Positions 4,941 to 21,242 of a DNA stretch of 25,982 bases are shown piece by piece; position 1 is the stretch's first letter; every line of letters begins with the position of its first letter. Source of the DNA: a virus; the IMG/VR virus record IMGVR_UViG_3300013101_000074, positions 1 to 25,982 of that record; one strand, written 5' to 3'. The position numbers and the translations under genes are program-made. The notes under the pieces are model-generated. The model was given only the letters and a program-made list of their open reading frames with translations, was not told the origin of the DNA and searched no databases.

Positions 4941-6065
4941 TTAACCCTTGATGGCTACGTCCACGCACATGACACCGAAGTCCTCGACTACGCCGGAGGC
5001 CATTCCGCCCATCAGCTTGCCTTCGAACTGGGGCTTCAGGAGTCCGGAGATCTTGCCCACGGAGATACCATCCTGGTTCCCGTAGTCGAAGGTCTCTTCG
5101 TTCCAGTCAGCCTTGCCGATGTCAGCGATACCCATTGCCTGAGCACCACAGAAGAGCATACGACAGCCGTCGATAGTTCCAGATGCGCCCCACTTACTGC
5201 CGGAGGCCAAACCACGAGTGTTGTACACGTGCCGGTACTCGGAGATCGCCATACCATCAACCATGACGGTGTCAGTTCCCTTGAACAGTTCGTTCACAGG
5301 CCCACGCTGACCAGCATTGCGGACGTTGGCGAGGTAGTCGCTATCGGTACGCAGGTTGGCCATCGCCATCGGGGTAAGGAACACATGGAAGAACTCAATG
5401 CCATCACTGGTCCGAATCGCGCGCATGTACTTCTCTTTCGCAAGAGCTTTCAGCTCGACGAGATCGGCCCATCCGATGGTGTCGGTAGCGGTGATCGCAT
5501 TCTGCGCCCCACCGGGAGTGAGAACACCCGCGATCTTGGCGAAGTAGCGACCAGCGGAAGGAGCCTTCACATCGGCTGCATACTCAAGCAGCGGAAGATC
5601 GGAACCCACACGGGTTGCACCATTGGTGTGCAGACTGTAAGCCACACCTGACAGAGTCAGAAAACCGAGCTGATCGTGACGGTCGGCGACCCAGTAGGCC
5701 AGCTTGTCGCGGGACTGCTCACGGAAGGTGACGACAGACCGCTGGTCGGCCATCTTACCCTTGGAACGGTTCGCATTACGGAGCTGATCGATCTGAATGA
5801 CCTGATCTTCGGAGGTCAACGCCTCTTCATTACCTTCCAGCGTTCGATCTCCGGCCTTACCATCGCCGTCAATATCGTTAACCAGGGTAATAACGGCGCG
5901 TGCGCCTTTCTTGGTCTTGGTGAGTTCGCTGATGCGCTGTACCAGAGCATCCTGGCCGGAGCCAGTGAACTTGTTGAGGAACGAGTAGTTCCTTGCTTTA
6001 CGCCAGAAGTCCATCGACCAAATGGTCAATTCTTCGTCGGTAAGTGCGGCGAAATTTGTTTGCAT
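4941..6065 (-). CDS. Major capsid protein, N4 gp56-like family
   Basis: This 374-aa protein forms the icosahedral shell. The N-terminal segment has the features of the N4 gp56-like capsid family: SMDFWRKARNYSFLNKFTG, then ELTKTKKGARAVITLV, GDRTLEGNEEAL and IDQLRNANRSKGKMADQRSV. RDKLAYWVADRHDQLGFLTLSG follows at about 120-140. The later part contains FHVFLTPMAMANLRTDSDY and an insertion-like YRHVYNTRGLASGSKWG. The length agrees with the family (about 350-400 aa). The start at 6065 is an ATG; the sequence just before it is TGAGGGCATAGAA, which gives GAGG 8 bases upstream. It follows the scaffold gene after a 198-base structured leader and is followed by the decoration-type gene and a terminator. 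Confidence 0.93.
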   Translation of the reverse strand: MQTNFAALTDEELTIWSMDFWRKARNYSFLNKFTGSGQDALVQRISELTKTKKGARAVITLVNDIDGDGKAGDRTLEGNEEALTSEDQVIQIDQLRNANRSKGKMADQRSVVTFREQSRDKLAYWVADRHDQLGFLTLSGVAYSLHTNGATRVGSDLPLLEYAADVKAPSAGRYFAKIAGVLTPGGAQNAITATDTIGWADLVELKALAKEKYMRAIRTSDGIEFFHVFLTPMAMANLRTDSDYLANVRNAGQRGPVNELFKGTDTVMVDGMAISEYRHVYNTRGLASGSKWGASGTIDGCRMLFCGAQAMGIADIGKADWNEETFDYGNQDGISVGKISGLLKPQFEGKLMGGMASGVVEDFGVMCVDVAIKG

Positions 6066-7407: not shown

Positions 7408-7635
7408 TTACCCGGTGATGTCTTTAACAGCCCACATCACACACTCTTCGAGCTTGGTTCTAGCCAGACTCAGTTCTCTCGACGCACCAAAGGAGCTGAG
7501 GTACTCATGCAGATCCAAGGCTTTGTCCTTGACCGTCTGCATCTGTTCCTTCTCCGTCTCGGACAGCACCTTATACTGGTGCCTCATTACGTTATTGGTA
7601 GCGCGTTTGTCGTCCGTACTGTTGAACTCTGTCAT
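7408..7635 (-). CDS. acb2: Acb2/Tad1 hairpin-family protein, putative anti-CBASS cyclic-nucleotide sponge
   Basis: This 75-aa protein has a short N-terminal tail and then an antiparallel helical hairpin: RHQYKVLSETEKEQMQTVKD is helix 1 (residues 18-37), LHEYLSSFGASRELSLARTK covers the turn and start of helix 2, and the C-terminus is LEECVMWAVKDITG. The HxYxxLSxxE start, the S-R-x-LSLA-x-T-x-L-E-E helix and the final MWAVKxIT are the signature I know for the Acb2/Tad1 domain, whose members bind cyclic di- and trinucleotides and so blunt CBASS or Thoeris signalling. Tyr21 and Lys36 are 15 residues apart, the same spacing as Tyr11 and Lys26 that I recall as cGAMP-binding in PaMx33 Acb2. The start overlaps the portal stop as ATGA, and scaffold follows 31 bases on. 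Function is inferred from family. Confidence 0.78.
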   Translation of the reverse strand: MTEFNSTDDKRATNNVMRHQYKVLSETEKEQMQTVKDKALDLHEYLSSFGASRELSLARTKLEECVMWAVKDITG

Positions 7636-9917
7636 TTCTTCGGTGCTCCTGGTTTAGCCCCTGCGGGCTTTGGGGTGGGTTTATCCGCCTTCTTGTTCTC
7701 AACTTTGAGTTTTCCGGCGTCATTCTCTGATTTCTGATCGAGTGCGCGGTCAGCCGTTCCCTGCTTACCGGCGTCACTCGCTCCCTGCTGCTCCACGGCT
7801 TTGTCGGCAGTTCTGGCCTTCGTGAGTTCCATCACGTGCTTGGAGCGAATCTCCTGACGCTTCACCGCAAGCTCTTCGCGGGCAAAACGCATCTTCTCGT
7901 CGATCTCGTACTTATCCAGCTCAAGCGTTGCGAGATCCTTCTCATAGTTGTGCTTCACCTCGGCCATCTTGATCTGATCATCGACGGTCATCACCTGACC
8001 CTCAAGCTCGCCGCCCGGTCCCTGCTCAGCGTCGATCATGGAGATAGCTGTCTCTGCGCGGATCTTGGCAGTCTCAGCCTCGGTCTTCTGAGCCTCAAGC
8101 TGCTTGATCTGCATCTCCAGGTCCATGAGAGCCTGCTCTTCCTCAGTGGGGCCACCGTCGTTCGACATCTGTTCCAGCAGCTCCTGCTTATCAGGCAGGT
8201 GGCTGGCAGCGATGATAGTCGTGTCGGGAATCTCAACACCCAACTCTCTGAGCTGGATAGCCTGTTGAAACTGCGACTCTTCGAACGTCTCACGTGCGGG
8301 AACGCTAGTGACTACGACTTCGTACTTACCGATGCTGAGGTCGCGGGCAATCTGCCCTTCGGGGGTCACCTCATTGATCGTGACCTCTTCCGTCTCGTTG
8401 CCAACCCCCTTGGTGATCTGCAGAATGCGCTCCTCGCGCATGAAGTCCTGCATCAGCTCCATGATATTCCGAGCAAGGATCATGCGGGACTTGTTCAGAT
8501 TGTGGAGCACTTTCGTGAAGTTCGTACTGCCCTGCGCCTGTTTCGCCTGGATAGCCTTGGCGGCTACGTCAGCCCTGTCAAACCCACGCATCGAGTCAGA
8601 CACCATCGACATCTCTTTGAGGTCGTTGTTCAGGAGCTGACTGATCCGGTCGAGGCCGGTGGGGACTTGGTTGGGAGTAATCTTCTCAAGCGGCTGCGAC
8701 CCGGCGCGTCTCATCAGAACAAGGCCGGTCTCCGCGCCACGTTCCTCAAGCTCCTCGTCGGTCATGTTGGTGAGCTGCCCTTCTTCACCCTGCCAACCGC
8801 TATTCGCAGTTGTGTTCACGATGTGAAGCTCCTGCGACCGGGTCTTGTTGTACATGTTCTGAGGGTCGATCATGTTCTCAACGAGCCCGATAGTCTGCCC
8901 GTGCCGGAAGAACGGGAAGAAAGGCACAACCGTAAAACTGCGATAAGGGCTCTTCGAGTCGTGCAGCAGTGTATCGTTGCACGTTACAGTCCAGTGGATC
9001 TGCTCAACCCGCTTCTTAATGATAGCGACGTTGAACTCCTGCTGGATGAGCTGGACCTTCTCTCGGGGCATCCCCGGTGAGATCGGGCGCACTTCCCCGG
9101 TACGCAAGTCTACGAAGTGCTCCTGCATGGCAATTTTCTTGTACTGCCGCTCAAGTATTCTGTAGACCCGTCGATACTCATTTACCTCGCGCTCTACGCC
9201 GAACTCGGTAAATCGTGTGTTCTCACCACCGAAGGTATCGGGGCGAATATCCAGGAAGTCATAGCCCAGGTAATTCTCGTTGTAGGCCATCGAACGCAGC
9301 TCGTCGGCTGCTCCCTTACCATAGAACATCTCTATGTCCTGAATGGACAGCCACTTCGTGACAATCACATCCTTCCATGACTTGGGGTCGTACTCTTCAG
9401 AGTCAGGGTCCAGGACTACGTTGCGGGGGTTGAGCTGGGTAATTTTCACATCACCGAAGATGTTCTCTTCGTAATTCATGCGGCAGTCGAAGTAGCCGCG
9501 AGAGGTAATTACACCATCCTCGAAGACATCTGCTTCTTTCTCGCCGAGACGGTTCCAGTTGGTTATGTGGATGAACGTCTGGTTGAGGGCGTTGGAAGTC
9601 TCCATGTTGCCGCCACGTATCGGCTTGAACCCGATATCGGCGACTTCGTTCATCTGTTCACCAAGGATGGCCGCGACTGCGGGGAGCACCTTGTTGATAG
9701 TGAGTGCCGGTCTACCCTCGGCTTCGAGGTCGGCTTTCGTCTTTGCGGCCCAGTGATCGCCCCGGAAATACCGGTCGCAGACCTTAGCCTTCTCATTAAA
9801 GAGAAGATGGCCGTTGTCGCGTGCGTACACGTACCGCTGGTTGTTTACCCGCACCTTTTCAGTTTTGATCATGCTGTTACGGGGATTCGATGCTTTTGTA
9901 AGGTCGTTCGTTCTCAT
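7632..9917 (-). CDS. Portal protein, P22-like/SU10-like
   Basis: This 761-aa protein should form the dodecameric ring through which DNA enters the head. Motifs typical of P22-type portals are visible: CDRYFRGDHW (about 47-56), GRPALTINKVLPAVAAILGE (68-87), FEDGVITSRGYFDCRMNYEE (131-150), NPRNVVLDPDSEEYDPKSWKDV (about 160-180), SFTVVPFFPFFRHGQTIGLVE and DPQNMYNKTRSQELHIVNT (the wing-to-crown helices). The C-terminal 160 residues are a long Glu/Lys/Gln-rich coiled coil and a Pro/Lys tail, which would form a barrel. ATG at 9917 overlaps the previous stop as ATGA and GAGG lies 8 bases before it. The length fits the P22 family (about 725 aa). It is followed by the Acb2-like and scaffold genes. Confidence 0.93.
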   Translation of the reverse strand: MRTNDLTKASNPRNSMIKTEKVRVNNQRYVYARDNGHLLFNEKAKVCDRYFRGDHWAAKTKADLEAEGRPALTINKVLPAVAAILGEQMNEVADIGFKPIRGGNMETSNALNQTFIHITNWNRLGEKEADVFEDGVITSRGYFDCRMNYEENIFGDVKITQLNPRNVVLDPDSEEYDPKSWKDVIVTKWLSIQDIEMFYGKGAADELRSMAYNENYLGYDFLDIRPDTFGGENTRFTEFGVEREVNEYRRVYRILERQYKKIAMQEHFVDLRTGEVRPISPGMPREKVQLIQQEFNVAIIKKRVEQIHWTVTCNDTLLHDSKSPYRSFTVVPFFPFFRHGQTIGLVENMIDPQNMYNKTRSQELHIVNTTANSGWQGEEGQLTNMTDEELEERGAETGLVLMRRAGSQPLEKITPNQVPTGLDRISQLLNNDLKEMSMVSDSMRGFDRADVAAKAIQAKQAQGSTNFTKVLHNLNKSRMILARNIMELMQDFMREERILQITKGVGNETEEVTINEVTPEGQIARDLSIGKYEVVVTSVPARETFEESQFQQAIQLRELGVEIPDTTIIAASHLPDKQELLEQMSNDGGPTEEEQALMDLEMQIKQLEAQKTEAETAKIRAETAISMIDAEQGPGGELEGQVMTVDDQIKMAEVKHNYEKDLATLELDKYEIDEKMRFAREELAVKRQEIRSKHVMELTKARTADKAVEQQGASDAGKQGTADRALDQKSENDAGKLKVENKKADKPTPKPAGAKPGAPKK

Positions 9918-10281: not shown

Positions 10282-10602
10282 TCAGATCGCGTTTTCGTTC
10301 AACTTGTGATCTCCGCACCAATCATCCCCGAATACAGCGGGATAACCCCCCATCGTCGGAGAGTGCCTGCGACACCGCCCAAACGGTTTATTCTCGGCGT
10401 TCGCCTCTCCACTGGACACCTTCTCCACAAAGAACATGCACGTGCTACAGCGCATACCTTTCGCTCTGTGTTTCCACGGATCTTCGCTCATAGTTATTTC
10501 CTCTGTTAAAAATAAAAGGTCTGGTTTGTGTATACAGCCGAAGCCCCCTCGACCCAGACAGTTCAAACCACATACGGGGCAACTGAAATCCGCAGCCTTC
10601 AT
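10282..10602 (-). CDS. Cys-rich two-part protein, 106 aa, with internal start
   Basis: I place the start at the ATG at 10602 because it overlaps the thyX stop as ATGA and GAGG lies 5 bases upstream; an in-frame ATG at 10647 would overlap thyX by 49 bases. Residues 1-25 hold CPVCGLNC and a further Cys. The second part, from Met38, contains MRCSTCMFF, then GRCRRHSPT, then DDWCGDHK, a four-Cys module met in many phage orphan proteins (CxxCxFF, CRR-x-P, DWCGxxK). A very strong ribosome site precedes Met38 (see the site at 10489-10504), so a 69-aa shorter product is likely too. A metal-binding role is inferred; the partner is unknown. Confidence 0.72.
   Translation of the reverse strand: MKAADFSCPVCGLNCLGRGGFGCIHKPDLLFLTEEITMSEDPWKHRAKGMRCSTCMFFVEKVSSGEANAENKPFGRCRRHSPTMGGYPAVFGDDWCGDHKLNENAI
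10489..10504 (-). promoter_or_regulatory. Strong internal ribosome binding site
   Basis: On the minus strand AGAGGA (10504-10499) is followed by a 7-base spacer and an ATG (10491-10489). It lies in frame inside the 106-aa Cys-rich gene and would start a 69-aa protein that holds only the C-terminal four-Cys module. The bases before it are unusually A/T-rich for this operon (CTTTTATTTTTAACAG). Confidence 0.6.
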
Positions 10603-11303
10603 GTCTTCCTCATGAAATCTTCGAACGCCTCGTAGCTCACCGGACATTTCTCCTGGATGATCGAAGCGATGGCTTCCGCATAGACGCGGATCTCGTACTG
10701 AGCGTGGTGATGCAGCCGCTCATTCAGGAACCTGAACCAGTTAAGCATGTTCGCCGTCACGAACATCTTCGAGTACATAGCGACGGGGAGCACACTGCGT
10801 GCAAGCTCCCTTGCTACTCCACGTTTCAGCAACTCCTGGTACGCCTCATACGACGCCGAGTTCGCTTCGAACATTAGTTTGCGGATAGCGTGCAGCTTCA
10901 GCTCCTCATCCCCAGTGAGCTTCTGCCCGGGTGTGATGTCCCTGCTCTGCTTGTTATCCGCACTCTGGACGCCTATCACTTCGATGCCGGGGACGTAAAA
11001 CTCCTCGGGCAGCTCCGTGTAGCGGGCCGACATCTCGTTGTAACTCTGCGTCCGATGCCGGTGCCACTGCCGGTAGGTGAAGATAGGAGCTTTGACCTCG
11101 AACTTGAAGGTCACCATCTCGAACGGTGTGCTATGCCCGTTCTTCATCAGATAGCGGATAAGCCCCCGGTCATTCTTCTCATCCTCGCCGGAACGCCACG
11201 CAGCGTCGAAGCTGGTGCGGGCAGCCCGCACAACGTCAATATCCCCGCCCATGTGGTCGATATACCGGAGGTAGCCATGATCGAGCAGATTGACCTGCTT
11301 CAT
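10599..11303 (-). CDS. thyX: FAD-dependent thymidylate synthase
   Basis: ThyX makes dTMP from dUMP with methylene-tetrahydrofolate, using FAD and NADPH. The signature RHRTQSYNEMSARY is present at residues 82-95, matching the ThyX motif RHRxxSxNExSxRY. NGHSTPFEMVTFKF (about 55-68) is the upstream substrate-binding segment, and ELARSVLPVAMYSKMFVTAN, then LNWFRFLNERLHHHAQYEIR, are the later conserved blocks. The length, 234 aa from the ATG at 11303, is normal for the family. That ATG overlaps the previous stop as ATGA and has GGAG just upstream; an in-frame GTG 33 bases further upstream is less likely. Phages carry thyX to feed DNA synthesis. Here it is coupled to a probable dNTP diphosphohydrolase. 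Confidence 0.96.
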   Translation of the reverse strand: MKQVNLLDHGYLRYIDHMGGDIDVVRAARTSFDAAWRSGEDEKNDRGLIRYLMKNGHSTPFEMVTFKFEVKAPIFTYRQWHRHRTQSYNEMSARYTELPEEFYVPGIEVIGVQSADNKQSRDITPGQKLTGDEELKLHAIRKLMFEANSASYEAYQELLKRGVARELARSVLPVAMYSKMFVTANMLNWFRFLNERLHHHAQYEIRVYAEAIASIIQEKCPVSYEAFEDFMRKT

Positions 11304-12499
11304 TTCTCCACCCCCGCTTCCTTGTTGTTCTCCCACTCGTCCTTACGTTTCAGTCTCCGCCCCAAATCACGAAACCTCTCTTTCTCCTGAGCATCCAGCT
11401 CGTCGTACGGGGGGATTTTATTTATCACCGTATTCACATTCCGGTCAATGCGACTACCCACTTTGAACCCTTCGCGCTTCTCCGTCTTGAAGTCACGCTT
11501 CTTCACCTCACTAGCTTCGTCAACCGGCTCGTGGCTCCGCATCTGCAACTCCAGTATAGCCATCGCATTCCATGCAGCGTGCGCGAGGTGAGTCAAACCA
11601 AACTCGGGGTCAATGATCTCTCCCCGATTGTGTTTGATGAGGTGACGACGCATAGCCCCCTGATAACGAGCCTCCGCCTTGGAAACTTTCAACCACCCGC
11701 CGTCGCTATACTTCGCAGCCCCGTGGGTGGCAATCTTGCCAATGGCTTCGAGCGCACGCGGGAAGTCCATGTCGATCAGCTCCATACGAACTTTCTCATT
11801 ATCATCCTTCGCGCCGGGAGATTTCAAATCCATCGTCGATGCGGTGTGGGTGGGGCCGATGTCCCCCATCGTAGCCCCCCCAGACAAATGGTTAAAAGCC
11901 ATCTCGTCAACCTTATCCTGCAGAGTACCTTTCCCCGGGAACGTCTCGTCCAACCTGTCTTTGAGATCCTCAAGGTTCACCGGCTCCTCAATGAACACAG
12001 TCTGAGCAGCGGGGCGTGTCATCTCAGGGTAATACTTCTTGCGGAGCTGCTCGTACCGTACGGGTGTGAGATTATAGAGCACGGACTTATCGGGGAAGAA
12101 GAACTTACGGGATCTGTGGGTTCCGGGCTTCAAGAAACTATCCCGTGCGTCAGTACCGCCATCGGGCGGGCTCCACATCTCGATCTGAGCCAGAGTAAGA
12201 TTCAGATCCATCTTCGTCAGCTCCTCCTTCTTCACGAACATGATGGAGAGACTCTCGGAGTTCCCGTAGATCACAGGGATAAGTCCCTTGTTCTGAGCGA
12301 AGCTGCTCAGCACGTTGTTTATGGTATGACGGAGTTTCGTCCACCACACCTGCGTATCCTTGGAAGTGGGGTTAGCAGCCGGGTCCAACTCATCGTGCCA
12401 CTTCACCAGCTTGTCCTCGATGGGGTACTGCTGCGTATCGATCAACTTCATTACGTGCGAAAGAACTGTCTGCGCTGCTCGCTTATTCAGGTTTTTCAT
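11300..12499 (-). CDS. Protein with dATP/dGTP diphosphohydrolase-like (DUF5664, MazZ-type) domain
   Basis: The 399-aa protein has an unknown N-terminal half (1-225) and, at about 232-320, the DUF5664/MazG-like block: KVRMELIDMDFPRALEAIGK, ATHGAAKYSDGGWLKV, RYQGAMRRHLIKHNRGE and GLTHLAHAAWNAMAILELQM. Members of this group are annotated as dATP/dGTP diphosphohydrolases, and the cyanophage S-2L enzyme MazZ is related. The usual form of this domain is a short stand-alone protein, so the long N-terminal extension (with SFLKPGTHRSRKFFFP and RPAAQTVFIEEP) is odd. The C-terminus is Lys/Arg/Glu-rich and probably unstructured. ATG at 12499 has GAGGA 8 bases upstream and the gene runs into thyX by ATGA. 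A role in nucleotide pool control is inferred. Confidence 0.78.
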   Translation of the reverse strand: MKNLNKRAAQTVLSHVMKLIDTQQYPIEDKLVKWHDELDPAANPTSKDTQVWWTKLRHTINNVLSSFAQNKGLIPVIYGNSESLSIMFVKKEELTKMDLNLTLAQIEMWSPPDGGTDARDSFLKPGTHRSRKFFFPDKSVLYNLTPVRYEQLRKKYYPEMTRPAAQTVFIEEPVNLEDLKDRLDETFPGKGTLQDKVDEMAFNHLSGGATMGDIGPTHTASTMDLKSPGAKDDNEKVRMELIDMDFPRALEAIGKIATHGAAKYSDGGWLKVSKAEARYQGAMRRHLIKHNRGEIIDPEFGLTHLAHAAWNAMAILELQMRSHEPVDEASEVKKRDFKTEKREGFKVGSRIDRNVNTVINKIPPYDELDAQEKERFRDLGRRLKRKDEWENNKEAGVEK

Positions 12500-12549: not shown

Positions 12550-14388
12550 TTATGCGGCCATCGAGCCTCCAGCCCGCTTGCCTCTTTTCCTTGTATGACT
12601 TTTCAATTTATCCTTCCAAGATACAACTTTCTTCACTCTGGGCCGGTGCGGCGTGGACGCCTTGTTCACCATGCGTACGAGCCACGCCAACGCATCGACC
12701 TGATCGTCATGGACCCCGTTGGGAAAGCGAAGCAACTCCGCGATGAACTCCTCGGTCCACGGCTGGTCAGCCGGGAGTATGATCTTGCCCTGCTGCGTCC
12801 AACCTTGCGCGGGCCTCGCACGTGCGACCTTGTCGTTTATCGGCAGCAGAGTCTCATCGAAGGGACAGGGATAGCCCCCGTGGGCATTGTCAGAGAGGAG
12901 CCTCATCAAATTCGGCATTATCGCCATCTGAATCTGTCCACGCTCAATTCCGCACATCTGGAGCTTGTCCTGGTACGGTTTCATACTTTCGAAGACTAAT
13001 TTCGCGGGGTCGTCGGTGCGAGCGCGTATCCGGTCCACTAAGTGGAGCCTCCCTTCGAAGTCAAGCGCAGCTATGAGCCCCACAGTCCAGTCGTTGGCCT
13101 GCTTGAGACCGATTGCCAAGTCCCACGCGGCGTAAACGTGCCATCTCTGCCACGGTGCGACGTGGGCTTCGAGCCGAAAATTCTGCCTTTTGAAGATACT
13201 GCCCTCATCCGGCACCGGTTTCTGCATAAACAGCGCATTCCAGAAGCGTGGCTGCGTCGATTTCTTCTTCCTCCGATAAAACGCCTCGTCATACCGCGCC
13301 GGGTGCAGTGCCGCGTCCTTTTTACGCACCAACCGTACTGAGGGGTCGTCCTCGTCCGGTGTCGTGGTGAGATGACCCCTACCATCTATAAACTCATCCT
13401 CCTCAGCTACCGCTGGGAAGCTCACCACGTCCCAGTTGATAATATCTTCGCGGTCCTGCTGCATCGCCTTCAGCCGGTCCCGGCTGTACTCCCTCATAAT
13501 CTCCGTAGAATTCGGGTCGGCCAAAGTAATCTCACACTCGTCCTCCTGCTCGACCACCTCTTTCATCGCATCCATCTCCTGCTGGATGAGACGACCGGCG
13601 AGGTCCAAGTCAGACCACCTCGTCATGGTCAGCATGACTCCTCCACCCGGAGAAAGTCTCGTGTCCGCAACTGAGTCCCACCAGTCCCAGATACTTTGAA
13701 GAGTCGTCTCGGAGTCCGCCTCTGTAGCATCTTTCACCGGGTCGTCGATGTTAAAGATATGAGCGCCCTTACCGGTAGCACCACCGCCGACACCCACCGG
13801 CAAGTACATCCCCTGCTCTGTGGTGTACCACCCGTCAGTAGCCTGTGCGTTGGGGTCAAGTCTGGTCTTCGGATACAAGGCTTGATACTCATTACTGCTG
13901 AGGGTTGACTTGATCCAACGTGAAAAACCCATAGGAAGTGAGACTGCGTAGGACGCAGAGATAAATTCCCAGTTGGGGTGCTTGCCGAGCACCCACGGAG
14001 GGAACGCCTTGCTCACGATGGTGCTCTTCCCCGTACGTGGCGGCTGGAAGAACATGATGCGGGGGGACTGCTTATTCTCCACATCAATTACGAACCGTTC
14101 GAGCTTCGCGCATATCAACTTATGCACCCAACCGGCGTCATAGTTGGGGATGAAGTTCGTAATGAAGTTTATGAGCCTTCTTCGAATGAGTTCACGCCGG
14201 AACAACTCCTGCTTCGCTGACTCAGCCTGATGGTCAATAGGCGTGCAGGTTCTGCACACCACGGATCTGGTATGCGGTTTCGTTCCTTTGAGGAAACTCC
14301 GGAAAGTCTTATAGGCAGTTCCGCACAGCCTGCAGATTTTAGTGTGCTGCTTCTCGTAGATGTACGCTTGTTCTGCGTGGGTAGTCAA
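12550..14388 (-). CDS. terL: Terminase large subunit, with N-terminal zinc ribbon
   Basis: This 612-aa ATPase and nuclease packages DNA into the head. Walker A is QPPRTGKST (about 115-123) and Walker B HIFNIDDP (about 207-214); TMTRWSDLDLAGRL follows the coupling region. The nuclease domain shows YAAWDLAIG, then DFEGRLHLVD, and DDQVDALAW near the C-terminus. Unusually, an N-terminal CRLCG (Cys19, Cys22) and VCRTC (Cys45, Cys48) form a probable zinc ribbon. No ATG precedes the ATPase domain in frame. The TTG at 14388 overlaps the upstream stop as TTGA and has GGGGA upstream, so it is preferred; a TTG at 14415 is the alternative. The C-terminus is basic (KSHTRKRGKRAGG). Confidence 0.92.
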   Translation of the reverse strand: MTTHAEQAYIYEKQHTKICRLCGTAYKTFRSFLKGTKPHTRSVVCRTCTPIDHQAESAKQELFRRELIRRRLINFITNFIPNYDAGWVHKLICAKLERFVIDVENKQSPRIMFFQPPRTGKSTIVSKAFPPWVLGKHPNWEFISASYAVSLPMGFSRWIKSTLSSNEYQALYPKTRLDPNAQATDGWYTTEQGMYLPVGVGGGATGKGAHIFNIDDPVKDATEADSETTLQSIWDWWDSVADTRLSPGGGVMLTMTRWSDLDLAGRLIQQEMDAMKEVVEQEDECEITLADPNSTEIMREYSRDRLKAMQQDREDIINWDVVSFPAVAEEDEFIDGRGHLTTTPDEDDPSVRLVRKKDAALHPARYDEAFYRRKKKSTQPRFWNALFMQKPVPDEGSIFKRQNFRLEAHVAPWQRWHVYAAWDLAIGLKQANDWTVGLIAALDFEGRLHLVDRIRARTDDPAKLVFESMKPYQDKLQMCGIERGQIQMAIMPNLMRLLSDNAHGGYPCPFDETLLPINDKVARARPAQGWTQQGKIILPADQPWTEEFIAELLRFPNGVHDDQVDALAWLVRMVNKASTPHRPRVKKVVSWKDKLKSHTRKRGKRAGGSMAA

Positions 14389-14663
14389 GCGTATCCCCGA
14401 ATGTAGATACTGCAACCCGGGTTCATGACACGAGCCAGGACTGAAGCCATAAATACCGGGAAGGTCGCTAAATCGTTAGCCTCCGGTGTGATGTACAACA
14501 GATCTGCGTGGTGGTGTTTCAAATCATCACCCACCGCGCAAGTCTGAATCAACGCCTTCTCACTGAAATACATCTGCTTCGCAGATCGTGCGGCGTGCTC
14601 ATCTTTATACACAACCAGAATGGAAGACTCACAGTCTTCCTGGTGGAACTTACAAGGTGTCAT
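14385..14663 (-). CDS. Hypothetical protein between the terminase genes, 92 aa
   Basis: The ATG at 14663 has GAGG 9 bases upstream, and the gene ends in a TTGA overlap with the large terminase. The protein begins MTPCKFHQEDCESSILVVYK and has KHHHADLLYITPEANDL in the middle and MNPGCSIYIRGYA at the end. Alternating short helices and hydrophobic strands (ILVVY, ADLLYI, CSIYIRG) suggest a small alpha/beta fold. I do not recognise the family. Its place between small and large terminase genes suggests a late role in packaging, or an accessory cargo gene. Confidence 0.75.
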   Translation of the reverse strand: MTPCKFHQEDCESSILVVYKDEHAARSAKQMYFSEKALIQTCAVGDDLKHHHADLLYITPEANDLATFPVFMASVLARVMNPGCSIYIRGYA

Positions 14664-15436: not shown

Positions 15437-15526
15437 ACTTCGGATTCCGGATTCTGACATGGTCAAGAGAAGAGAGGAGGGGGTTAGAAAAGATTAAACG
15501 TAGCTGCGCTGCTTTAAGAATTAAGA

Positions 15527-15587
15527 GAGCCTCCGACAAGCTGCGGCCAGGGGCATCGGGTTGTAATTCAATTCGATCAACAGGAGA
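15527..15587 (+). repeat. Leader repeat, copy 1, including ribosome site
   Basis: This 61-bp block begins GAGCCTCCGACAAGCTGCGG and ends CAACAGGAGA, where AGGAGA is the ribosome site of the 81-aa gene that starts 8 bases later. A second copy with 58 of 61 identical bases lies 341 bases downstream at 15868-15928, ahead of another gene. The CCTCC at its 5' end is complementary to the GGAG at its 3' end, so the leader could fold to hide its own ribosome site. Confidence 0.85.
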
Positions 15588-15853: not shown

Positions 15854-15877
15854 TCGGAGGTTCGTAAGAGCCTCCGA
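15854..15877 (+). promoter_or_regulatory. Hairpin overlapping leader copy 2
   Basis: TCGGAGG (15854-15860) pairs perfectly with CCTCCGA (15871-15877), loop TTCGTAAGAG. The right arm is the 5' end of leader copy 2. Copy 1 lacks this upstream arm. It lies 13 bases after the stop of the 81-aa gene and no run of T follows, so a terminator is unlikely. Confidence 0.65.
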
Positions 15878-15928
15878 CAAGCTGCGGCCAGAGGTATCGG
15901 GTTGTAATTCATTTCGATCAACAGGAGA
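15868..15928 (+). repeat. Leader repeat, copy 2, including ribosome site
   Basis: This is the second copy of the 61-bp leader. It differs from copy 1 only at 15892 (A for G), 15895 (T for C) and 15912 (T for A), with no insertion or deletion. AGGAGA at 15923-15928 is the ribosome site of the 34-aa gene that starts at 15934. Two of the three changes fall in the GGGCA segment that a simple fold leaves unpaired. Confidence 0.85.
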
Positions 15929-17081: not shown

Positions 17082-17474
17082 TCCAATATCATACAATGTA
17101 CAACTACGTCAGTCTTTCCTCCGGACCAACTAGACATTCCGCGTTTACTCGCAGCTATTGCAAAAGTCAACGAATACCCAGGTACACCCAATCACGATCC
17201 CGATTCAGAACAAGTAACCGACTGGACTCCGTTCATAATCTGGTGGTACTTAGGGGATGACAACGTCTGGCTCGAAGATGGTTGCCTCTGTATAGAATTC
17301 GGCAAGCATCGCAGTGAACATACCTGGAGAGATCTCGGTGCAACCCTCATAGTCTTAAATCAATTCGCATTGCAGAAGAACGTGCGTTGCCCAATACACA
17401 TCATCGATAAAGACAACAACTTCGCAGATTGTGGAGAAGTACACTTCGACTTAGCAACAGGGCAACCGATGTAG
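17079..17474 (+). CDS. Hypothetical protein, 131 aa
   Basis: The protein starts MSNIIQCTTTSVFPPDQLDI and has a Trp-rich middle (TDWTPFIIWWYLGDDNVWLE) followed by CLCIEFGKHRSEHTWRDLGA and CPIHIIDKDNNFADCGEVHF. The pattern of alternating strands and helices, and a Gly/Asp-rich end, suggests a compact alpha/beta domain. Phage orphans with a similar WWYLGDDNVWLEDG-type core exist to my knowledge only as hypothetical proteins. It ends just before a strong terminator, so the leader-repeat gene set 15595-17474 forms one unit. Function is unknown. Confidence 0.82.
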   Translation: MSNIIQCTTTSVFPPDQLDIPRLLAAIAKVNEYPGTPNHDPDSEQVTDWTPFIIWWYLGDDNVWLEDGCLCIEFGKHRSEHTWRDLGATLIVLNQFALQKNVRCPIHIIDKDNNFADCGEVHFDLATGQPM

Positions 17475-17482
17475 CGTTCTAT

Positions 17483-17516
17483 CCTCAGAGTCCGTCATGG
17501 GCTCTGAGGTTTTCGT
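17483..17516 (+). terminator. Rho-independent terminator
   Basis: CCTCAGAG (17483-17490) pairs with CTCTGAGG (17502-17509); TCC and GGG add a further U-G wobble and two pairs, with loop GTCAT. TTTTCGT follows. It closes the first early unit, 8 bases after the stop of the 131-aa gene. Confidence 0.9.
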
Positions 17517-17546
17517 GCTAAAAGAAGGGGCCAGGACTTGAGTGGG

Positions 17547-17960
17547 GTATCAGGGAGTATCAAGGAGTATCAGGGTGTTTTTAGCGAATTCGTTATACAA
17601 ATCAACCAGTTAAGCGAAAGTATCAGCGTATCACCATTACCCTGGGTGCGGGGGACACTCCAGGGGTGACTTGCCCTTTTATACCCCATATGTGTACTAA
17701 CCATAGATATATATAAGATGATACCCTGATACTTTCTCCTCTACCGTAATGATTTATATAGGGTTTTCTGGTATCACCTTATGGTATCAGGTATCTGTAT
17801 TAACCATGATAATTTACCCTTTTATAGGTGATTTCACCCTTATTTGGGGGTGCAAACGCCAATCCTTGCCCTTACTCAATTCATCTTGAACAGTGTTCAA
17901 TTAATAAAAAGCATACTAAACACTGTTCAGAACCCCAAAAGGTATCAGTAACCTGATACC
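17547..17960. repeat. GTATCA repeat array, candidate origin or operator cluster
   Basis: This gene-free stretch has at least ten copies of GTATCA. GTATCAGGGA, GTATCAAGGA and GTATCAGGGT stand head to tail with a 10-base period (17547-17576). GTATCAGC and GTATCACC follow at 17620-17635. TGATAC occurs twice in the reverse sense with an 8-base period (17719-17732). GTATCACC is at 17771, GTATCAG at 17784 with GTATCTG directly behind it, and the array ends in GGTATCAG taac CTGATACC (17941-17960), a perfect hairpin just before the ribosome site of the next gene. Between the clusters are A/T-rich runs (for example 17703-17720 and 17753-17760). Iterons plus A/T-rich DNA next to a primase-helicase gene fit a replication origin; a repressor operator array is the alternative. 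Confidence 0.72.
17887..17929. repeat. TGAACAGTGTTCA palindrome and inverted partner
   Basis: TGAACAGTGTTCA (17887-17899) is a perfect 13-base palindrome. AACACTGTTCA (17919-17929) repeats its core in the opposite sense, 11 of 11 complementary to TGAACAGTGTT, so either two dimer sites or a hairpin can form. It lies at the right end of the array and ahead of the next gene, as a repressor operator would. Confidence 0.65.
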
Positions 17961-17971
17961 GCAGGAGTAAA

Positions 17972-18118
17972 ATGAATATTGATGATTTAATCCTCTTACA
18001 AAGCCTCAAAGAACTCGATACATTCTGCGAAACTAACAGTCATGAATCAGTGGAAGCACTGATCAAACACGTCAAACTACTAACACAATACATACTTGAA
18101 AAAAAGGAGGACATATAA
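17972..18118 (+). CDS. Small acidic protein, 48 aa
   Basis: ATG at 17972 has GCAGGAG 5 bases upstream, directly behind the GGTATCAG hairpin. The product (MNIDDLILLQSLKELDTFCE, then TNSHESVEALIKHVKLLTQY, then ILEKKEDI) is a pair of short acidic helices with one Cys. Its stop overlaps the next start as TAATG, so the two genes are coupled. It has no recognised family. Because the operator-like hairpin touches its ribosome site, it is probably the first gene of a regulated unit. Confidence 0.7.
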   Translation: MNIDDLILLQSLKELDTFCETNSHESVEALIKHVKLLTQYILEKKEDI

Positions 18119-18541: not shown

Positions 18542-18736
18542 ATGATAATGTCAATGAAAACAAAGAACCCCCGTAAAGTGCCGGTCACAATTCATCTTGA
18601 CCGTCGCACATACATAGAGTTGAAGAAACGTGCAGCCTATGAAGGACGTACCATGTCCTCATACGTATTTCGAATGTTGCAGACCTCATTCACTCATGCA
18701 CCCAAGCGCGAGAGTGACACACAAGAGGCAGCATAA
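18542..18736 (+). CDS. Ribbon-helix-helix DNA-binding regulator, 64 aa
   Basis: The core VPVTIHLDRRTYIELKKRAA, then YEGRTMSSYVFRMLQ, is a typical Arc/CopG-type ribbon-helix-helix: a beta strand that reads the major groove (VPVTIHLD) followed by two helices. Such proteins bind as dimers to short operators and often regulate their own operon. In-frame ATGs at 18542, 18548 and 18554 are all possible; GGA lies 5 bases before the one at 18548. The stop is one base before the start of the primase-helicase gene, so both are probably one unit. The GTATCA array and the TGAACAGTGTTCA palindrome upstream are plausible targets; this is inference. Confidence 0.85.
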   Translation: MIMSMKTKNPRKVPVTIHLDRRTYIELKKRAAYEGRTMSSYVFRMLQTSFTHAPKRESDTQEAA

Positions 18737-18737
18737 A

Positions 18738-21242
18738 ATGGGCTTCAAAAAGAAAGACAACAAGCTGAACATACTCAAGCTCTGTGACGAAGATGCCTTA
18801 CTCCCCACATCGTTATGCGTGCTCAAAGGCAAGCGACCTGTACGCAAAGAAATAAAAGGGCAGAAGCCCAGTGGGGATTGGGACATTATACCCTACCCCA
18901 ATCTTGCCATGTTCGAGTGCATGTACGCCGTCGTAGCCGACATTGAAACACTCGAATCAACGATCAAAGCTCTCGCTGAATCACCGTACTACTTCCCTAT
19001 CATGGGTAAGCCCAGCGAAGCAGTAATCAACAACTACGTTAATAGACTCAACCCTCTGGATATACCTGAGATCTATCGCCGCTCTAACGACAGTGAAGCG
19101 GGACCACGCTCTATCATGGAGATGCCGGGTCTCTTCTTACCTATTGATGTAGACACCATGACCATTGAGGGCTACACCACTAATAAAGCAGGGGCTAAGA
19201 AGGCATTAAAGAAACTGTGTGAGGACATACCTGAACTCACCGGAGTAAGCTGTGTCTACCAGCACACCACTAAAGCAGGTATGACCAAAGATGCAGTAAA
19301 GATTCGCTTCTATTTCCTCTTGGACACACCTACATTGCCACGTGATATCAAGGCATGGCTCAAGAACAAACCTATTGATAGGAGCATTTATGGAATTGTT
19401 CAACCTATCTACACAGCTAATCCTTACTTCAACACTAATGCAGTTGCCAATCCTATCCCTGATCACCTGCGTATTGGCTCTATCATTGGTGATCTGGAGT
19501 TTGTTTCTGTTCCCACCGCGCACAAATCCAAGACTGCGGACATTGAAAAACTTCATAAAACATCCTTTCAAGACAAACTCGCAACCGACCCCATACTTCA
19601 CGAATTGTTCTCGAAAGATATGGTTAAAGCTGAAAACGAGAAAGTCCCCGGCACGTTCAATCTCAATGAGTGTCCGTGGGCCGATAGTCATACTGATGGG
19701 CAAAGAACTGGTGCCGCATACTTCGCACCTCATTATAACAACCGCAAGTCACCGGGATTCAGTTGTTTTCATGATCACTGCAGAGAACACAATATTCATT
19801 CACTGAAAGCATTCCTTGGCATCAGGATGCCTCACCCTAATGACAAGTCTCAAAAAGATCCTAAATACGCCAAGCAGCCCAAGAACGAAGAAGCAGCAGA
19901 GTGTGGGACAGTGAGCGACCGCTTCGCCGACCCGGTGTTCTATGAAGATATCGATAGATTCGACACCGCATTTGATACATTAAAGAAACGCTTTATTTAT
20001 GTAATGGATCAAGAGTCTTTTTATGATATGTGTTCTCACCGCCTTTATAAGAAAGAAGCCGTAGATAACATGTACAGGGCTCACTACAATCAGGCCAATG
20101 GCTTACTTGGAGTTCAGCTCCTGAATGACATGTCAGCTATCAAGACCACCTCCATGATATACCTGCCGGGTGAGTCCCCCATCGTGGAATACAACAACGA
20201 ACTGTGTGTCAACATCTACAATCGCCTTGGTACACCGGCACCTATACCCGGAGCTGTAGAGATCTGGACTGAACACATGGAGTACCTGTTCCCTGATGAA
20301 GTAGAGCGTGAACACCTCTATAGTTGGCTGGCGTTCTGTCTTCAGAACCCTGCCATCAAGATCAACTATGCTGTCCTGGTCGCAGGGATATCGAGGAACG
20401 GTAAAGACTCTGCCTTTGAACCCTTCAAGAGAGCTATGGGCATCAAGAACGTACGTGAGATAGCAGCCGTGGAGTTGAAAGAAACCTACACGGACTTCCT
20501 CATGAACACAAAACTGGTAGTGATCCAGGAAGCTCAGAATTTTGACAAGGCCAGTATTGAGAATAAACTCAAGCCCATACTTGCATCACCTCCCGAGATG
20601 TTACGCATCCGGATGTTTGGTAAGGGCTTCTTTGAAACACCCAACATCGTACAAGGTCTCTTCTTCAGCAACCACTACAACGCCCTGAAGATATCCGAAG
20701 GTGATGGCCGGTACTACGCCCTGTGGTGTGGTATGAGTCCTCAATCTGCAACGTATTACCAGAGGTATTGGGACTTCATCAACGACACAGGCACTAGCCA
20801 CATCATGTACTGGCTCCTGGACAGGGACATATCTGAGTTCAACCCGTATGACTCTGCTCCCCAGACTGCGTACAAGCGAGGCATTCAGGATCTCTCACTG
20901 AGCAACACAGAACGTGGGATCAAACACATGATCGAGACGTTCGAGCCGCCCTTCCACCGTGACATGGTTGATATCCACCACGCAGTAAGTAGTGGGCAGA
21001 TACAACACGTGTCGGAGAAGAGCATCGCCATAGCACTGGCTGACATGCACTGTGAACGTAAACGCATCAAGCACATGGGCAAATTGCACAGTGTCTGGTG
21101 TATCCGCAATCAATCGAAATGGGCTAAGAAATCACCCAGATGGTGGTATGAGGAGTTAAAAGCTCGTGGAACTAAAAATGACAAAGACGAGGGTTCGGAA
21201 GCTGCGGGAGCAGATGGAGAGCCGTATGAGGAGAAGGATTAA
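18738..21242 (+). CDS. Primase/SF3 helicase (D5-like), 834 aa
   Basis: ATG at 18738 has GAGG upstream and is one base after the regulator stop; the frame reads further upstream but overlaps that gene. N-terminal region: FLPIDVDTM (Asp137, Asp139) and KIRFYFLLD (about 188-196), motifs expected of an archaeo-eukaryotic primase fold. A zinc-type patch, ECPWADSH (about 311-318) and SCFHDHCRE (342-350), follows. The helicase domain has Walker A GISRNGKDS (550-558), Walker B LVVIQE (593-598) and motif C LFFSNHYN (641-648) of superfamily 3, with GDGRYYALW after it, as in the DUF5906/NrS-1-polymerase group. The protein should open the duplex and prime DNA at the origin. It overlaps the next gene by 17 bases. 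Confidence 0.9.
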   Translation: MGFKKKDNKLNILKLCDEDALLPTSLCVLKGKRPVRKEIKGQKPSGDWDIIPYPNLAMFECMYAVVADIETLESTIKALAESPYYFPIMGKPSEAVINNYVNRLNPLDIPEIYRRSNDSEAGPRSIMEMPGLFLPIDVDTMTIEGYTTNKAGAKKALKKLCEDIPELTGVSCVYQHTTKAGMTKDAVKIRFYFLLDTPTLPRDIKAWLKNKPIDRSIYGIVQPIYTANPYFNTNAVANPIPDHLRIGSIIGDLEFVSVPTAHKSKTADIEKLHKTSFQDKLATDPILHELFSKDMVKAENEKVPGTFNLNECPWADSHTDGQRTGAAYFAPHYNNRKSPGFSCFHDHCREHNIHSLKAFLGIRMPHPNDKSQKDPKYAKQPKNEEAAECGTVSDRFADPVFYEDIDRFDTAFDTLKKRFIYVMDQESFYDMCSHRLYKKEAVDNMYRAHYNQANGLLGVQLLNDMSAIKTTSMIYLPGESPIVEYNNELCVNIYNRLGTPAPIPGAVEIWTEHMEYLFPDEVEREHLYSWLAFCLQNPAIKINYAVLVAGISRNGKDSAFEPFKRAMGIKNVREIAAVELKETYTDFLMNTKLVVIQEAQNFDKASIENKLKPILASPPEMLRIRMFGKGFFETPNIVQGLFFSNHYNALKISEGDGRYYALWCGMSPQSATYYQRYWDFINDTGTSHIMYWLLDRDISEFNPYDSAPQTAYKRGIQDLSLSNTERGIKHMIETFEPPFHRDMVDIHHAVSSGQIQHVSEKSIAIALADMHCERKRIKHMGKLHSVWCIRNQSKWAKKSPRWWYEELKARGTKNDKDEGSEAAGADGEPYEEKD

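Follow-up and report, generated by a model that had tools for sequence, protein, structure and literature searches.

We have found that eleven exact copies of GTATCA lie in a gene-free gap of a phage record, with the least stable DNA of the whole record inside the array. We read this gap as probably being an iteron-type origin of phage DNA replication, whose initiator would most likely be the 834-aa DUF5906 helicase encoded further downstream, with the control of the early operon overlapping. The window analysed here is the complete IMG/VR virus record IMGVR_UViG_3300013101_000074 (25,982 bp), which is a linear fragment, so it is possible that an origin or an initiator lies elsewhere in the phage genome.

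To our knowledge, the origins of most uncultured phages are not known. If our reading is true, sequence alone would be enough to locate the origin of a DUF5906-helicase phage, by a short word that is repeated on the two strands where the DNA is least stable, and the recognition of iterons by the helicase becomes testable across many phage lineages. In addition, phage replication would be joined to that of SaPI and SCCmec elements.

Organization of the record

The left side of the window is taken up by leftward structural genes, and the genes run rightward from ~15.6 kb on. The main structural genes are as follows.

4941-6065, leftward block: major capsid gene
7632-9917, leftward block: portal gene
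12550-14415, leftward block: terminase gene

The portal and terminase are nearest to those of Pseudomonas phages of the KPP25 group and of Acidovorax, Aeromonas and environmental phages, at ~29–40% identity. No close relatives appeared in single-sequence scans with the helicase and the terminase, nor by DNA similarity among phages and plasmids. Within the leftward structural block, a ThyX-like gene (flavin-dependent thymidylate synthase, 10599-11336) was judged by eye from its translation. A 62-nt direct repeat, 95% identical, is present at 15526-15587 and 15867-15928; both copies end in a ribosome-binding site ahead of a small ORF, and the repeat is a candidate duplicated leader.

The GTATCA array in the gene-free gap

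The gap is bordered by an ORF ending at 17474 and a 48-aa ORF starting at 17972, and contains the following features.

17475-17971, no strand: non-coding gap with the array, the proposed origin region, without any ORF of at least 50 aa
17483-17509, plus strand: intrinsic terminator (12-pair stem, T-rich tail) that opens the gap and closes the upstream rightward genes
17547-17572, plus strand: iterons 1-3, GTATCA at 17547, 17557 and 17567 with a 10-bp period
17616-17633, plus strand: iterons 4-5, GTATCA pair at 17620 and 17628 (8-bp period) that forms the left arm of an inverted repeat of 18 nt
17634-17718, no strand: centre between the arms, 85 bp, A/T-rich at its right end (TATACCCCATATG...AGATATATATAAG)
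17703-17802, no strand: candidate unwinding element, the 100 bp with the lowest stability anywhere in the record by a nearest-neighbour scan
17719-17736, minus strand: iterons 6-7, inverted GTATCA pair at 17719 and 17727 (8-bp period) that forms the other, right arm of this repeat
17771-17796, plus strand: iterons 8-9 at 17771 and 17784, then a near copy, GTATCT, at 17791
17886-17930, no strand: two palindromes that are almost identical, TTGAACAGTGTTCAA and CTAAACACTGTTCAG, ~31 bp apart, in the stretch from the array to the first early gene
17941-17960, no strand: iterons 10-11, a perfect 8-bp inverted pair, GGTATCAG-TAAC-CTGATACC, just 5' of the ribosome-binding site

An earlier note on this DNA had described at least ten GTATCA repeats in about 490 bases without genes, and this description holds well: the exact sites number 11, between 17547 and 17959, in a gap of 498 bp. 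The three head-to-tail copies with an exact 10-base period, the two 8-base-period pairs in opposite orientation and the terminal perfect hairpin that it reported are all present, as iterons 1-3, 4-5 against 6-7, and 10-11, respectively. Its statement that the array directly precedes the replication block fits the operon, whose first gene is the 48-aa ORF, but not the helicase gene, whose start lies 778 bp past the last repeat. The note overlooked two features, i.e., the record-wide stability minimum and the 18-nt inverted repeat (GAAAGTATCAGCGTATCA / TGATACCCTGATACTTTC, 94%), whose arms are the two 8-bp-period pairs, 85 bp apart.

Such a density is far higher than chance would give. Among 2,000 versions of the gap made by dinucleotide shuffling, none had more than 3 copies of GTATCA or more than 8 of any hexamer, and outside the gap the densest hexamer of the record is found 6 times per 500 bp. 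In the window as a whole, 21 copies are found where 11.8 are expected, so the excess of GTATCA sits in the gap.

DNA stability and other signals in the gap

According to nearest-neighbour energies, the 60-bp stretch of lowest stability in the record (17701-17760) also falls inside the array. The 100-bp minimum has a value of -1.149, compared with a mean of -1.420 and a standard deviation of 0.072 over the whole record. A terminator-like match at 17767-17791 was discarded, as it consists of two direct iterons. The two palindromes at 17886-17930 are operator-like and probably serve a second dimeric regulator, a protein other than the one of the array.

The exact DnaA box TTATNCACA is absent from the gap, where one match with a single mismatch occurs at 17593; over the window, DnaA-box matches number 20, against 17.5 expected. 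No clean reversal of GC skew was found at the array. The Rfam search and the sigma-70 promoter scan gave nothing decisive, and the literature search on the GTATCA motif gave nothing informative.

The early operon and its helicase

Directly after the last inverted pair come AGGAG and then the ATG of the 48-aa ORF, with the ribosome-binding site region at 17961-17971. Three genes of the operon are of concern here.

17972-18118, plus strand: 48-aa ORF, first gene of the early/replication operon, with an AGGAG ribosome-binding site
18542-18736, plus strand: 64-aa Arc-like ribbon-helix-helix protein (PHROG 582, Arc-like repressor), the rival ligand of the array
18738-21242, plus strand: 834-aa DUF5906 (D5/VapE-like) primase-helicase, the proposed initiator (Pfam DUF5906 and DNA-primase PHROG matches)

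The match of the 64-aa protein to PHROG 582 is weak (E 0.002) and below Pfam cut-offs. For the helicase, a profile of 49 homologues searched against the PDB matched the NrS-1 helicase with E 5e-38 and, with E 1.5e-6, a VapE-like SaPI protein. The N-terminal part of the AlphaFold model is of low confidence (mean pLDDT 67), while the helicase core is of high confidence, together with a C-terminal helix-helix-helix-hairpin at residues 723-790, which we confidently predict from the model to be a winged helix. The solved folds nearest to the model, as found by Foldseek, are the helicase of phage NrS-1, the SaPI5 primase-helicase and PriRep1. Judging from this family and fold, the iterons are probably bound by the C-terminal domain of the helicase itself.

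GTATCA arrays in other phages

A scan of IMG/VR for GTATCA triplets with a 10-bp period returned 48 contigs. As a recurrent motif the triplet had to be given up, because a scrambled control word saturated the wider scan too; triplets of any word are thus frequent and say little by themselves, and only arrays on both strands were used later. Five IMG/VR contigs (L021, L030, L034, L035 and L048), from Firmicutes-type phages, carry the 10-bp-period triplet beside regulator genes of the DUF1492/phrog_36 type and ahead of HNH or TerS genes, where the triplets are candidate late-promoter sites.

About 13 independent GTATCA arrays on both strands were obtained. The control word and other words also give similar arrays, many of which adjoin VapE or DUF5906 helicase genes, and it is therefore the architecture rather than the word GTATCA that recurs. 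Eight loci (L161, L179, L198, L238, L255, L340, L329 and L350) have such arrays of other words around A/T-rich DNA, adjoining VapE/DUF5906 helicase genes, and these are candidate origins readable from sequence.

These arrays belong to phages unrelated to that of the window, and for eight of the 13 independent ones a helicase or primase gene is at most 500 bp away, where 2.4 are expected (P ~2e-4), a figure whose force is limited as the loci were picked for their arrays. The helicases at these eight belong to the classes D5 (L080, L151), VapE (L130), DUF5906 (L123), DUF927 with a Cch HTH (L065, L079) and AAA_25 (L062, L138). No recognisable helicase is near the array in L044, L056, L085 and L145. 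Mere presence of a helicase gene is not significantly associated with the array (DUF5906 in 6 of 15 array records and 8 of 30 controls), so only adjacency counts. In addition, weak DNA co-locates with the array across 14 array loci (Fisher P ~4e-7).

The exact dyad geometry of the window was seen in just two other contigs, L079 and L355. The latter (G001, IMGVR_UViG_3300032248_000474) has, like the window, 8-bp-period GTATCA pairs as inverted repeats that flank A/T-rich DNA with a spacing of ~100 bp. Its array stands where the leftward structural genes meet the rightward early genes, and a DUF5906 helicase is encoded in the record. Unlike in the window, a long distance separates the array from the helicase gene on the linear contig. 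No close protein homology between the two records is detectable.

Relatives and homologous helicase loci

Pseudomonas phage KPP25, chosen without regard to any motif, is the closest relative by structural genes and encodes a DUF5906 helicase, as the window does. In its genome (NC_024123, ~26.2–26.9 kb), a 677-bp gap in the rightward early module holds 8 GTTACGA sites on both strands, with one 8-bp pair, and these sites surround the 60-bp stability minimum of the 50 kb examined (z 6.4). The layout is the same, the iteron word differs, and the KPP25 helicase gene is ~12 kb from its array. In MW202483, the closest relative by helicase, arrays of TGTAAAC and TACCAA surround the 60 bp of lowest stability in the 38.8-kb genome.

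We further fetched 80 loci with homologous helicases through the protein only, blind to the motif. None of the 80 has a GTATCA array, and most are without any dense array. On the other hand, the least stable 60 bp lie within 400 bp 3' of the helicase gene in 8 of the 53 usable loci, compared with 1.8 expected (P 3.5e-4 before duplicate removal); 6 such loci are left after duplicates are removed. Iterons on both strands surround the weak spot 3' of the helicase in L340 (TAGAGG) and L329 (GTAAGC), and the same is seen in L350 (GTAAGG), which is outside the 53-locus set. The earlier note had held that a lack of conservation of the array in related phages would speak against it. The hexamer is indeed not conserved, but the layout recurs in KPP25, in MW202483 and at several helicase loci. 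Overall, the comparison with other phages suggests that the gap is where replication of the phage starts.

A probable replication origin and its alternatives

The repeat density, the symmetry of the inverted pairs and the helicase fold with its predicted winged helix speak for an origin. The origin that the earlier note proposed gains partial support from the stability minimum in the array, from the layout shared with KPP25, MW202483 and homologous loci, and from the arrays that adjoin helicase genes, while the lack of conservation of the hexamer in the helicase family counts against it. So do the lack of a good DnaA box, the 778 bp between the array and the helicase gene, the unclear GC skew, the array phages without a recognisable helicase nearby, and the single GTATCA triplets that also occur at late-gene promoters of Firmicutes-type phages.

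If the gap is an origin, the initiator, most likely the 834-aa helicase through its predicted C-terminal winged helix, would bind the GTATCA sites flanking the weak DNA at ~17680-17800, and two opposed assemblies would sit on the two inverted 8-bp-period pairs. Once bound, the protein would open the least stable DNA of the record and then load as a helicase, from which bidirectional copying would start. The last inverted pair, beside the ribosome-binding site, may let the same protein damp its own operon. As a wider proposal, phages with D5/VapE/DUF5906 helicases might generally use fast-diverging iteron origins of the SaPI kind, with GTATCA as a recurring core beside four helicase classes through a common partner or convergence; we put this forward tentatively, as a doubtful extension.

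The main alternative is an operator array, where the 64-aa ribbon-helix-helix protein or some HTH regulator binds GTATCA cooperatively and switches the early/replication operon. The array does follow a terminator and precede the operon's first gene, with its last inverted pair abutting the ribosome-binding site and well placed for control, and an Arc-like gene is within the operon; moreover, six GTATCA sites stand beside a ribbon-helix-helix gene in L019. However, among 19 records that carry GTATCA arrays or triplets, such genes were found in 3, and in none where the array adjoins a helicase gene, so the ribbon-helix-helix operator that the earlier note offered as its other reading gains little. 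Also, the array is more than 400 bp long, is centred on the weakest DNA and not on a promoter, and its layout is repeated beside helicase genes in other phages. We consider this explanation unlikely as the main role, though origin and operator functions can coexist in the same site.

It is very improbable that the array is a packaging or late-control site, i.e., a pac/cos-type terminase site or a set of late-activator sites. GTATCA arrays often border TerS, and single triplets stand between DUF1492/phrog_36 regulator and HNH/TerS genes in several Firmicutes-type phages, but such triplets are easily found with the scrambled word too, and the array of the window lies on the early side, at a distance of 2.4 kb from the TerS-like gene, reads into early genes and has DNA prone to unwinding at its centre. 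That the array is a centromere-like partition site of a plasmid-like prophage is hardly to be believed, since neither ParA nor ParM genes were recognised in the window and its sites are irregularly spaced and face both ways, although a ParA-like gene does stand near a GTATCA triplet in L011.

Comparison with known origin systems

The replication origin proposed here shares iterons and an A/T-rich unwinding stretch with the iteron origins of theta-type plasmids. Unlike those, its iterons are only 6 bp long, irregular and on both strands; no DnaA boxes stand beside the unwinding element in the gap, and no plasmid-type RepA gene was seen in the window.

The origins of SaPI and SCCmec elements, with their self-loading helicases Rep and Cch2, are more alike. 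In these the C-terminal end of the helicase binds the origin iterons, and the SaPI origin is directly downstream of the helicase gene (PMC7581432). In the window the iteron word is GTATCA and not AAGTG, the genome is that of a phage and not an island, and the array is upstream of the helicase gene with small genes between. As this position departs from the SaPI rule, we say that the site may work like a SaPI origin and do not class it as one. The points in common are that several short specific iterons (11 in 498 bp) are present, that easily melted A/T-rich DNA lies between the iteron sets, and that the helicase is of the D5/VapE class with a putative C-terminal dsDNA-binding domain, as indicated by Pfam, by the fold match to the SaPI5 primase-helicase and PriRep1, and by the predicted winged helix.
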